Assembly: GCF_040054535.1 (NCBI RefSeq) | Contig: NC_090791.1 | Location: forward strand, 15,551,327-15,615,326 | Length of the DNA stretch: 64,000 nucleotides | Reading direction: 5' to 3' | Origin: Antennarius striatus | Lineage: Eukaryota > Chordata > Actinopteri > Lophiiformes > Antennariidae | Shown: positions 17,396 through 22,871 of the stretch, piece by piece | How the letters are laid out: each line of letters begins with the position of its first letter | Position numbering within the stretch: the stretch's first letter is position 1 | Program-made: the position numbers and the translations under genes | The notes under the pieces: generated by a model | Seen by the model: the letters and a program-made list of their open reading frames with translations, nothing else | What the model was told of the DNA's origin: nothing | The model's database searches: none

Positions 17396-20300
17396 TTACG
17401 TTTTATTTTCAGTCACCAGGCTGACGTCATCACATCCCACCCCATCAGACTTAGTAGTCATAGGAATAGACCTTTCTGGACCATCCTTAACTTCGTCTGG
17501 TACAAATCTATATCGTCCATTTTTCTTTGAGCGTTTGAGATGAACTACAGCAAGAAAAAGAGTGATGACGATGATGAACAGAATTAGCAACGCCCAAATG
17601 ATCGCCCAGGCGACGGCACTGGTTTTGCCTGAAATGCAAGAGGATTAAACATTACTGTAAAACCCCAATTTCCTGATACCGTAGATGTTTTACTTTCTGT
17701 AACTTCTGCTGCACTTGTCAGCCCCAGATCCTTGTGTAGATTTTACTAAGAAATCTGACGTTAGACAATAACGAGGTACCTTTGATTACCAGCGTGACAA
17801 CTCTTGTCACATTCCCAACTTCATTCGTGGCAACGCAGAGATAAACGCCGGCGTTGGTAGACGTGGCTCCCGTGACGCTGAGACTCTTCTGGCGCCCCCT
17901 GGTGGTCTCCATCACGTTCGCCGCTGAGGTGTAGTCCCAGTGGACCTCGGGTGTAGGGTTGCCCTCAGCGCTGCAATTAAAAGACACATTTTCACCCGGA
18001 GCAACCTCCACAGTGTTATTTCCCATCTTAAACACAGGAGCGTCTGTGGAGAGAAGAGTGAGATTTGTCAGGAAGCAAAAAGCATGTCGGGAAATGTCTT
18101 GATAAATCCCATTTCACTGTTTTTAAAAATACAAAATACATAATGTTGATTTATAGTATGTGGAGCACTGTACCGTGTACAGTGGTTGCTCTTAAAGGGT
18201 AACTTCCCCTGTCACGCCTTGATCAAGACACTATGGAATGACTTATTTCTATTAAAATCAAACACATGGACTTACATTCCATTGTGATATGGACAGAAGC
18301 GTTGCTGGTGCCGATACTGTTTACAGCTTGAACTGTGTAGGTTCCTGTCTGAGTCCTGCTCAGTGGTTCAGACGCATTAATACGTTTTCCCTGATAGAAC
18401 CACTGAATGTTAGGTGGAGGGTTCCCATCAGCTCTGCAGGACAACATGTCCACACTGAATTCTTTCTCCATGCTGGTATAATGGTCTGGACAACCTTGGA
18501 TCAATGGCTTATCTGCAGTTCATACACATTATTAATCAAACTTTATCACATCTCAGCAAGAAACTTGTGACCCATAATAATGTACAGATGATTAGAAAAC
18601 TCACAGTGTACAACAACAGTGTAATATCGTGAAGGTGTTAGGATTAGCTCTGGTGCTTTTGGTCCGAGGTGCAGCTCAACCTCGCATCTGAAACTTGTTC
18701 CATTGTCGTCTCTCCCAGGTTGAAATCCCAAGGAAAACGACGCATTGACTGGAGTCACACCAGAGTTATTATATGTTTCTGTATGGATGGTCTCATTATC
18801 ATGGTACCACTTCACTCCAAGACCCTGGACAGGAGCCATATGGACGATGTCACAGCTCAGCAGATACTCCATGCCCTCCACCATCACACCTTGAGCGAAC
18901 GCAGAGGCTGACTCATTGTAGGGAGAGTCTTGAATAAGGCCAAGAAAGGTAATTAGTAGGAAAAAGATGAAATGCATAAACACAAATGCACTAGCGTTTG
19001 TTTCTGTGCAATTCTTGGGTAGTTCACATCATCAATCTTCCATATCTACTTTGGCTTTGATGTGGTACTTTATCTGTGCTATGAAAAGTCATCTTTCTTT
19101 CAGACTTGTTATCTCATATGATCATCCCTTTTACATAAGCACAGAAGAGAGCAGAGTGTGAGTCCTTGTACTCACTATAAATAATGATGTTCGGTATCTT
19201 AAAGCACTGGTTATCTTTCAGAATCCCATAACAATTAGGTTCTCCAGTCGACTCTTGAGGATTTGTTATCATTCCTGGGACAGTAGGAAGGGTACTGAGT
19301 CCTGTGTCCCCTGATGTCGCTTCCCATCGCATTTCCGAATGATTGGTGGCTGTTTTGCTGCAATTCAGTGAAACTGGATCCCCAAGTCTTACAACGGCCT
19401 CAATGGGCAGCAAAATGAGAGGGCAGTCTTAAATTTGAAACCAAGAAGATTCAATCAGTCCTTCATTTGTGGTGTACAGTAGAGATAAGTGTAATCTAAC
19501 GTAAAACGTCCAGGGGATGTATGGTGTACCTGCTTGTACCGATGCCTCATGGATGATGATGGTCGCGTGGGTTGATGTTACGGAATCGTCTATCACATGA
19601 ACATGGATTTTCTTAGTTACGATCCCCAATTTATTGATGGCTCTGCAGGTGTAGGTTGTGCTGGTCATCACCCCAGTGATGGTGAGATTATCTGTGAACT
19701 CAGGCAAATTCTCTCCATCGTGCTTCCACGAAAAGATAGGAGGGGGGCTCCCCTCAGCTCCACAGTTCAAGGTGACGTCATTACCCACATGCACAAACAC
19801 ATCCTCTGTGTTTGTCTTGAGCTCAGGAGCATCTGAGGAATCAAACGTGACTTCTCTTGACTTTAGAAGTACAATTTCCCGCCCCCTGGTGACTGTGATT
19901 GGTAATGCATTCTGCTTAAAGTATACTGTACTTGGAGCTGACAGAAGCTTATTTGTATTTCAGGGCACGAGCATGATTCAATGAGATTAGGACCAACACG
20001 TTATACAGGAAGGACAGGACTGGGAGATAAACTAAATACACAGCTAAAACAAATAGAGTCCTATGTTGCAATCTTAGTGAAACCAGGAACATTGAAAATG
20101 ATGCATATTAAAAATGAAACACACATGGACTCACATTCCATTGTGATATGGACAGAAGCATTGCTGGTGCCGATTCTGTTTACAGCTTGAACTGTGAAGG
20201 TTCCTGCCTGAGTCCTGCTCAGTGGTTCAGACGCATTAATACGTTTTCCCTGATAGAACCACTGAATGTTAGGTGGAGGGTTCCCATCAGCCCTGCAGGA

Positions 20301-22871
20301 CAACATGTCCACACTGAACTCTTTCTCCATGCTGGTATAATGGTCTGGACAACCGTGGATCAATGGCTTATCTGCAATTCATGAACAGCATTAATCAATC
20401 TTTATAATATTTTAGCCGGAGGTGTTTAACTTGTAAAATACAATAATGAGCAGATGATTAAACAACTTACAATGTACAACAACAATATAATGTGGTGAAG
20501 ATGTTAGAATTAGCTCTGGTGCTTTTGGTCCAAGGTGCAGCTCAACCTCGCATCTGAAATTTGTTCCATTGTCGTCTCTCCCAGGTTGAAATCCCAAGGA
20601 AAACGACGCATTGACTGGAGTCACACCAGTGTTATTATATGTTTCTGTTTGGATGGTCTCATTACCATGGTACCACTTCACTCCGAGACCCTGGACAGGT
20701 ACCACATGGGTGATGTGACATGTTAGTGTGAGCACCTCTCCCTCCACTGTCACACCGTTGTGTAACTCAGAGATTGACACAAAGTCTGGTCTCTCTGTAA
20801 AGAAAACAAAGGATGTCGATAGTGAGAAAATCTCCAAGTACAGCTACACAAGTAATATTCAGTGGAGGAATGTGTGCACATTTATCCAGTCAGGACAGAC
20901 AAATAGTGAGCATCTCAGTCACTTATGAAATTAAACAGTTCAACGAGTCCCGCTCTGTGTGGAGTTTGTTTGTTCTCCCCGTGTCTGCATGGGTTCTCTC
21001 CGGGCTCTCCGGCTTCCTCCCACCTCCAAAAAAACATGTGCTTCAGGTTAATTGACCATTTGAAATTGCCCGTAGGAGTGTGTGTGTGTGTGTGTGTGTG
21101 TGTGTGTGTGTGTGTGTGTGTGTGTGTGTGTGCGTGTGTGTGTGTGTGTGTGTGTGTGTGTGTGTGTGTGTGTGTGTGCGTGTGTATTTGTCTGTTTCTG
21201 TGTGGCTCCCCAGTGCACTGGCGTCGCTCCCAGAGTGTCCACGCCCCAAGACAGCTGTGATAGGCTCCAGCGGATGAAGCCGTTTAGAGAAAATGAACGA
21301 ATAAATGAATGAGTTTAGGATCTTCAATTAAATTAAAAAATATTAACTAACCCAGCAGCATAAAGTTGTCACCACATTCAGCAATGGCAGCACTGAAATA
21401 ATAAATATCATAATGCATGTTCCTTTAATTATATTTTGATGCTAAAGCCTTTGAGCTTTGCGTGAGGTAAACTTTTAAACAGACTTTTCCATTATGCAAT
21501 GGCTACTTCACCATTATATTCTCATTAACAATTGTATACTGTATATGGCCCTAAATTCCCAAAAATACAGATTTCTTGCAAAGTTTCTTGCCCAAAACTC
21601 CAGTGGAAGAGTGTATTACGGGAAGCCTGAACACCCTCCTGTTTCAGCCCTTTGGGCATAGAGCATCTGTGGGTGTCTATGACTTCTAATACACACTTCC
21701 TGCGGATCAGTAGATGAAACTTGAGCTCGACAGGGCTTTGATCCAAACTCTGAGAACCTGCAGCGTATCCTTCCTACAGGAAGTGCAAAGCCTACTATGA
21801 CATCACAAGTTGGCCTCTGTTGGCAGACACCATTCATGGTGGAAATTCATGAGAAAGTATATGTTGTATAATATAGGACTTCATTTGGGTTTTATATTGA
21901 ATTTACGCATTTGTCTCCAGCAGTATGGTTGCTTGTTTATAATGGAAAGTCTCCAAGAAAATCCAGTATCAAGCAGTGTTCTTTTTTTTCTTTTAGTCAT
22001 TTGAAATGACACTTACTGTATATAGTAATCTCAAGGCTTCTGCTGCATTCAAAAGAATCATTCAGCTTTATTCTGCACTCAACTTTTATATCCCAGTCTG
22101 ACAGTGACACCCACTGTGGGATAAAATTGTTCTCATCTTCCATGTCATTATCCGTGTTTCCAATTTTCCAGTACATCCCTTCATGATAGACATCTGCGGA
22201 TGTGCAATTCACTAAGAATGACTCTCCGTATTCTCCAATGAGCTCAGGAGGGTCCAGCGTGAGTGGGTTTAGCTCAGTGGGACATGTAGTGTCCGCATCT
22301 GTTGAGACACAAGTGGTCAGGCTTTTGTAGTTTAAATGTATATAAAACAGAATAGTAAATGCAGTATTTATGACATCTCTTATTTATATAATGAACTCCC
22401 TTGTTCATCAGACCCATTCTCTGCAGACTGTCTTTACATTTAAAACAGTTTACAAGACAAAGGCCAACAAAGAGAATATTGTGACTGTTACACCAAAAAC
22501 TTCCTAACACTTACCTCTGGCCTGTGTACAGGTTTATATACATTCACAAAAAATTTTTTTCACATATTTCACTTCATGAAGTAAAAAAATGTAAGGAATT
22601 TGTGCATAACATATTTTGGAAAACTGTATCTTTTAAATTAATTCTGCAGACAGCCCCTCACTAAAAGCAAATACTTTGTGTAAAACATAATATTTAATCA
22701 ACATGTCTTCAGGTTGTTTTTCATGGTTACCAAACACATGGACTTATTGAAATTGCATATTATATTAACTATAACTACATATATAGGGCATCATTGTGAC
22801 TCACCATGCAGTAAAAACATGAGTAGAAGAAGAGCAAACATCTTTAGAGGCAGTGTGTTGGACCAGGACAT
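17396..22871 (-). CDS. ICAM-like cell-surface receptor with eight Ig domains (duplicated D1-D4 block)
   Basis: This is a type I membrane adhesion receptor of the ICAM-like Ig superfamily. Exons in gene order: 22805-22871 (signal), 22017-22298 (D1), 20471-20794 (D2), 20135-20371 (D3), 19530-19832 (D4), 19176-19427 (D1'), 18605-18928 (D2'), 18276-18512 (D3'), 17780-18043 (D4'), 17396-17628 (TM and tail). Every junction is phase 1, giving about 840 aa. The start at 22869-22871 is the first ATG after an in-frame stop and gives the leader MSWSNTLPLKMFALLLLMFLLH. D1 has NPLTLDPPELIGEYGESF, as in ICAM domain 1. D2 has GLGVKWYHGNETI and CEVELHLGPKAPEL. D3 has CRADGNPPPNIQWFY. D4' has CSAEGNPTPEVHW and GVYLCVATNEVG. 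The single TM is AWAIIWALLILFIIVITLFL, followed by a basic HLKRSKKNGR stretch and a short tail without an ITIM. Many N-glycosylation sites are present. The intron between D4 and D1' is only about 100 bp and contains no leader exon. Which ICAM it corresponds to is not clear. Confidence 0.85.
17891..17910 (-). promoter_or_regulatory. Consensus CTCF motif inside a coding exon
   Basis: On the minus strand this reads GGAGACCACCAGGGGGCGCC, an exact match to the vertebrate CTCF core CCACCAGGGGGCGC. It lies in the D4' exon, where it encodes ETTRGR. Binding cannot be judged from sequence. Confidence 0.5.
19878..19893 (-). promoter_or_regulatory. CTCF-like motif between D3 and D4 exons
   Basis: On the minus strand this reads GTCACCAGGGGGCGGG, one or two mismatches from the CTCF core. 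It has the same orientation as the match at 17,891 and lies in an intron of the ICAM-like gene. Confidence 0.4.
20940..21310 (+). repeat. Dispersed fish element (SINE-like) with internal (TG)n
   Basis: This carries the block 'gggttctctccgggctctcc ... cttcctcccacctcc', then 'aattgcccgtagg', then a (TG)n run at 21078-21188, then 'gataggctccagc' and an (aatg)n tail. The same order of blocks recurs at about 28.87, 32.06, 54.0 and 61.3 kb, so it is one interspersed family. It lies in the D1-D2 intron of the ICAM-like gene. Confidence 0.7.

Follow-up and report, generated by a model that had tools for sequence, protein, structure and literature searches.

An ICAM-like gene with eight Ig domains in a doubled four-domain series in Antennarius striatus

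The subject of this analysis is an ICAM-like gene in a 64,000-nucleotide stretch of DNA from the fish Antennarius striatus (assembly GCF_040054535.1, contig NC_090791.1, positions 15,551,327 to 15,615,326 of the forward strand; hereafter the window, to which unprefixed coordinates refer). The systems closest to it are the ICAMs and VCAM-1, described here as far as the available parts of the cited papers go. ICAM-2 has two immunoglobulin (Ig) domains (PMC8417878). ICAM-1 and ICAM-3 have five Ig domains and ICAM-5 has nine (PMC10215618). An earlier note on this DNA had listed two, three, five or nine domains for mammalian ICAMs; the sizes two, five and nine stand, and a three-domain ICAM is not mentioned in these sources, no search for one having been made. 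A D1-D4 fragment of ICAM-5 makes charge-based homotypic contacts (PMC4089487). In VCAM-1, domains 1, 2 and 3 are homologous to domains 4, 5 and 6 respectively, and alpha4beta1 is bound by domain 1 and/or domain 4 (PMC5979609). Among fish, rainbow trout ICAM-1 has a signal peptide, an Ig-like domain and a transmembrane (TM) segment, and its expression goes up on infection (PMC8417878).

The gene in the window encodes eight predicted Ig domains, D1 to D4 followed by D1' to D4'. It is like ICAM-1, ICAM-3 and a five-Ig paralogue in the same genome, B1, in having a first-class domain with a Glu34-type residue (here D1'), a second-class D2, and middle and last domains. It shares its one-domain phase-1 exons with B1, and its TM segment and short cytoplasmic tail with ICAM-1. 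Unlike these five-Ig proteins it has eight domains arranged 4+4, and the integrin glutamate stands in the fifth domain and is absent from the outermost. Like VCAM-1 it has an internally doubled Ig block; however, the VCAM-1 block has three domains and both of its first domains are involved in integrin binding (PMC5979609), whereas here D1 has a lysine at that position and the best PDB matches are ICAMs. The long Ig chain recalls the nine domains of ICAM-5 (PMC10215618), for which the source mentions no doubled series. Trout ICAM-1 has the same signal peptide, Ig and TM elements, but 12 exons and 11 introns, again with no doubled series mentioned in the parts available (PMC8417878). The reading put forward here, which is held by a modest balance of probability, is that of one eight-Ig ICAM-like gene that arose by an old doubling, was later altered by gene conversion, and has D1' as the supplier of the integrin glutamate.

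Gene structure and the D4-D1' junction

The gene consists of 10 exons on the minus strand (22871..17396), and the coordinates of the earlier note are exact. The exon series that it claimed, signal-D1-D2-D3-D4-D1'-D2'-D3'-D4'-TM, is borne out by a joined reading frame that is open over 840 codons and would yield 840 amino acids (aa). All nine introns are GT-AG, and all nine are phase 1, the phase being as claimed. The predicted protein has a signal peptide, eight Ig domains and one TM segment, which reaches a 19-residue hydropathy of 3.26; the windows starting at residues 31-754 are all at or below 1.6. The features are as follows, with bit scores against the class profiles described in the next section.

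22805..22871, minus strand: exon 1, start codon and signal peptide (ATG, hydrophobic core FALLLLMFLL, phase-1 donor)
22017..22298, minus strand: D1, ICAM first-domain class (36.4 bits to the first-domain profile, next class 7.6)
20471..20794, minus strand: D2, second-domain class, 324 nt (85.5 bits to the second-domain profile)
20135..20371, minus strand: D3, middle class, 237 nt (57.4 bits to the middle profile; without the F-strand Cys)
19530..19832, minus strand: D4, last class, 303 nt (55.6 bits; about 20 extra residues ahead of the junction in the alignment)
19428..19529, minus strand: D4-D1' intron, 102 bp (GT-AG, phase 1)
19176..19427, minus strand: D1', second first-class domain, 252 nt (44.1 bits to the first-domain profile)
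18605..18928, minus strand: D2', second-domain class, 324 nt (80.2 bits)
18276..18512, minus strand: D3', middle class, 237 nt (61.8 bits; DNA 97% identical to D3)
17780..18043, minus strand: D4', last class, membrane-proximal, 264 nt (61.9 bits)
17396..17628, minus strand: TM helix and cytoplasmic tail, with a basic juxtamembrane stretch and the stop codon (hydropathy 3.26)

An assembly artefact was considered and is unlikely: there is no N in 17001-23000, and the halves differ strongly outside a homogenised tract described below.

Whether this is one gene or two depends on the junction between D4 and D1', where the earlier note had described an intron of about 100 bp without leader or TM exon. 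That description holds. The intron is 102 bp long, and its single ATG is useless, meeting a stop after two further codons. The codon immediately 5' of the D1' exon is an in-frame TAA, so that translation can enter D1' only from a spliced transcript. Over 19 residues, hydropathy in the frames across 19590-19380 peaks at 0.88, and in the D4 read-through tail at 0.61. AATAAA and ATTAAA are absent between D4 and D1', and the one such motif in 20134-19428 sits inside D4 at 19635. Each of these features argues against the alternative that two adjacent four-Ig genes lie here, their leader and TM exons having been missed, with the joined gene an artefact of prediction. That alternative would gain from the same-strand ICAM-like pairs found elsewhere in the genome, in one of which A1 has its own TM frame ahead of A2. 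It would also gain from the one TM-like terminal frame, a weak one at 20043 in the D3-D4 intron, that turned up when the four introns from D1 to D1' were scanned; of 200 first-order randomised versions of this intron, 7.5% contain such a frame. The same scan found no leader exon in the four introns.

The scan is imperfect. In a control, a comparable scan with other cut-offs gave a TM frame after three of five paralogues (A1, B2 and C2, not B1 or A2). Each of the five regions preceding paralogue first domains yielded one or more leader candidates, of which several are doubtful, and two leader-like frames appeared behind B2, in a place where they were not expected. The scan is thus of help without proving a single gene. 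The genomic signs as a whole (the open frame, the junction without leader or TM, the in-frame stop) favour one eight-Ig gene, as the earlier note held, and leave the two-gene artefact very improbable. At the genomic level a single gene, with eight predicted Ig domains in a doubled four-domain series, is supported.

Domain classes and relation to the ICAM family

A search of the genome with D2-D3, D1', D1 and D4'-tail recovered paralogues at three places: A1 and A2 at C16:5.82 Mb, with three Ig exons each; B1, with five Ig domains, and B2, with three classes, at C16:17.85 Mb; and C1 (partial) and C2 (three Ig) at C8:2.00 and 2.19 Mb. Their exon boundaries were taken from a simple splice scan. 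Class profiles were built from the paralogues only (first class 5 rows, second 6, middle 3, last 5), leaving out C1D1, whose exon was not resolved, and B2D2x as a row of its own, since it was used as the second half of B2D2. Against these profiles the best class is first for D1 and D1', second for D2 and D2', middle for D3 and D3', and last for D4 and D4', and the runner-up scores lower in 8/8 domains. Judged by these profiles, the order first-second-middle-last, occurring twice, is established without use of the window's own similarity, and it is not chance because the best class wins in every domain. D1 and D1' each have four cysteines, with a first gap in D1 that exceeds that in D1' by five residues, and D1 carries the DW motif that is present in four of the five paralogue first domains.

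The middle-class domains D3, D3', B1D3, B1D4 and C1D3 (5/5) have no usual F-strand cysteine and instead have one near the N-terminus, a pattern suggesting an unusual disulfide. At C16:17851700-17857000 (loci L034 and L035), B2 begins about 2.6 kb after B1 on the same strand. Unlike the gene in the window, B1 has no clear TM exon by scan, none appearing between B1 and B2; a leader candidate for B2 lies at 17853319. This pair could reflect a missed TM exon or a second, 5+3 fusion. For A2 (C16:5818800-5822200, L032; three Ig exons) the scan found no TM exon within about 3.1 kb.

The ICAM-like identity proposed earlier is supported by these classes and by comparison with PDB sequences. For D1-D2 joined, the ten best matches are all ICAM-2 (1zxq, 2.4e-8), ICAM-1 or ICAM-5, and they extend into D2, as expected of an ICAM-D2-like second domain; no VCAM-1 appears among the D1-D2 matches at E up to 10. 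For D1'-D2', ICAM-2 is best (2.7e-5), followed by CADM4 (0.0098), ICAM-1 (0.011) and VCAM-1 (0.06). D1 and D1' are both first-class domains by score (36.4 and 44.1 bits) and by their four cysteines.

Four observations weigh against ICAM membership. First, CADM4 stands second for D1'-D2', just ahead of ICAM-1. Second, neither D1 nor D1' is matched by Pfam ICAM_N, with E allowed up to 1. Third, in PDB the first-domain profile ranks ICAM-1 below CD4, an antibody fragment and CD22. Fourth, a search with all 840 residues returns mostly generic I-set proteins, with ICAM-1 last among the best 60 of 135. The Pfam model is taken as insensitive here because its only match in the whole genome is the first domain of A1; it misses those of A2, B1, B2 and C2. 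On balance the gene is ICAM-like and a probable fish relative of ICAM.

Position of the integrin residue

Glu34 is the LFA-1 contact of ICAM-1 (PMC10215618), and ICAM-1 with E34A is binding-defective (PMC13346889). The human ICAM-1 D1 query used here agrees with PDB chains at every residue. Three MAFFT alignments and one profile alignment place its Glu34 on the glutamate of the WE motif. The two first-class domains of the gene differ in this column, in 3/3 alignments each:

22165-22167, minus strand: codon of D1 Lys67, aligned to human ICAM-1 Glu34
19321-19323, minus strand: codon of D1' Glu440, aligned to human ICAM-1 Glu34

The first domains of A1, A2, B1 and B2 likewise have Glu in this column in 3/3 alignments; that of C2 has it in 1/3 (a local alignment) and is one column off in the two others. 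A Glu34-type residue is thus found in D1' and not in the N-terminal D1. Among the first domains D1 is moreover the most acidic: its net charge is -14, and those of the six others lie between -1 and -5. These findings make D1' the probable integrin site, should the protein bind an integrin at all. Two points weigh against this assignment: D1 could use another acidic residue, and the AlphaFold2 models made without an alignment are too poor to place the glutamate (mean predicted local distance difference test score, pLDDT, 41.0 for D1' and 57.9 for D1).

Two equal integrin sites are unlikely because D1 has Lys67 at the Glu34 position and a net charge of -14. The same two features count against a bivalent receptor in which D1 and D1' would both bind integrin, an idea modelled on VCAM-1, whose homologous domains 1 and 4 are both involved in alpha4beta1 binding (PMC5979609). 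D1 does retain the four first-class cysteines, and also the DW motif that it shares with four of the five paralogues, and this fits a bivalent receptor. With lysine in D1 where D1' and human ICAM-1 have the integrin-binding glutamate, such a receptor is improbable, and the bivalent binding suggested in the earlier note is not supported.

In the favoured reading the product would be one type I membrane protein with two first-second-middle-last series behind one signal peptide and ahead of one TM segment. It may act as a counter-receptor for a beta2-type leukocyte integrin, with the metal-contacting glutamate coming from D1', the fifth domain. The outer D1-D4 series would have lost its glutamate and would serve to lengthen the molecule or to bind a different ligand. 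A bolder form of this proposal is tentative: the integrin site may have moved inwards, so that D1'-D4', the old receptor, grips in mid-chain, the acidic outer four-Ig extension binds itself or another receptor, and D2-D3 is kept near-identical by exon-centred conversion.

With phase-1 exons throughout, splicing of the leader to D1' would also be possible and would give a shorter form with four Ig domains. If splicing mostly took this route and skipped D1-D4, most of the product would be the four-Ig form, and the outer series would be a cassette in minor use or in decay. The internal exons are all phase 1 at both ends and so can be skipped, most mouse ICAM-1 isoforms come from exon skipping (PMC10215618), and the lysine of D1 in place of the integrin glutamate would suit decay. 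The exons D1-D4, however, are all open with consensus-like splice sites, and the sequence from the middle of D2 through D3 has stayed almost the same as in D2' and D3', which speaks against simple decay. This route is unlikely to be the main one.

Origin of the doubled series and the surrounding genes

The likeness of the two halves is concentrated in one tract, delimited by identity in 40-base windows and a maximal-segment test:

20135..20704, minus strand: homogenised tract, copy 1, from mid-D2 to the end of D3
18276..18838, minus strand: homogenised tract, copy 2, from mid-D2' to the end of D3'

DNA identity between the halves is 97% in D3 and 85% in D2, with a sharp change within D2. Synonymous and nonsynonymous divergence (dS and dN) are 0.49 and 0.60 in the first 29 codons of D2, and 0.057 and 0.048 in codons 30-84; in D3 they are 0.064 and 0.022. 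In 40-base windows the exon parts of the tract are about 0.82-1.00 identical, and the enclosed intron 0.67-0.85. In the maximal-segment permutation test 0/10000 permutations reach the observed value (31/10000 with third positions alone). The enclosed intron, between exons 2 and 3 of the series, is homologous in the two halves (0/200 shuffles reach its score), yet 24% different. The simplest reading of these values is an old doubling followed by conversion focused on exons D2 and D3. A dS of 0.24 in the final 23 codons of D2 weighs against it, since the tract is not uniform.

Outside the tract the halves are far apart. As protein, corresponding domains are the best cross-half pairs (z against shuffles 7.4 for D1/D1', 78.5 for D2/D2', 87.5 for D3/D3' and 19.0 for D4/D4'), with D4/D3' close behind D4/D4' at 16.2. 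As DNA, D1/D1' and D4/D4' are saturated: their identity is near shuffle level, and their alignment scores are above 200/200 shuffles. No likeness beyond chance was found between the last 247 bases of the D1-D2 intron and the D1'-D2' intron (20/200 shuffles reach the score), or between the D3-D4 and D3'-D4' introns (23/200).

The equal exon lengths on which the earlier note relied are confirmed, at 324/324 nt for D2/D2' and 237/237 nt for D3/D3'. They are weak evidence of an old block copy, because about 324 nt is usual here (324-333 nt in the five paralogue second-domain exons resolved as single exons) and because the D2/D3 regions were homogenised recently; the equality itself is partly due to that conversion.

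The note had also expected sister relations from D1/D1' to D4/D4'. Domain trees give sisters for D2 (support 99/98) and D3 (99/99), which reflects the recent homogenisation. The trees do not group D1 with D1' or D4 with D4'; the branches of both pairs are long, and the approximately unbiased (AU) test does not reject sisterhood (p 0.40 and 0.33). The statements that these two pairs are sisters and that sisterhood is excluded were therefore both set aside. D1' matches B1D1 (53.1 bits), A1D1 (48.5) and A2D1 (35.0) better than D1 (26.9), and D4' matches B1D5 (61.2) and A1D3 (49.7) better than D4 (48.1). In the other direction, the best match of D4 is D4', and that of D1 is A1D1 (46.6 bits). D1' and D4' are thus nearer to another gene. 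The description of two tandem copies of one block is borne out as far as the doubled series goes; that the series arose by copying one block is no more than possible. Same-strand ICAM-like neighbours at two other places of the genome (A and B) are laid out in a way that could give rise to a fusion. Internal duplication and the joining of two tandem ICAM genes are equally likely origins of the doubling. Under the favoured reading either event would have doubled the series long ago, and exon-centred gene conversion would later have affected the stretch from the 3' two thirds of D2 through D3.

Within the gene, a long (GT)n array occupies 21078-21204 of the D1-D2 intron. Exons for a fibrinogen C-terminal domain lie at 23681-24016 and 24437-24721 on the minus strand, in a gene that looks angiopoietin-like; the end of its frame is some 0.6 kb upstream of the ICAM leader. 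Its first exon may be a 268-aa frame at 25819-26622, for which Pfam and PDB gave no match. Human ANGPTL6 lies near the ICAM cluster at 19p13.2. On the plus strand, 41604-42460 holds exons of a VWC2L-like gene (Pfam VWC2L_1st and VWC2L_2nd).

Among the literature matches listed (open-licence full texts), no title or abstract opening names a fish ICAM with eight Ig domains or a doubled block. A doubled Ig block is already known from VCAM-1, and the ICAM-like case is an addition beside it. A site shifted inwards predicts that D1' binds integrin and D1 does not. If the outer copy gave up integrin binding, this gene would be a natural experiment on how reach or ligand may change after a block of domains is doubled.

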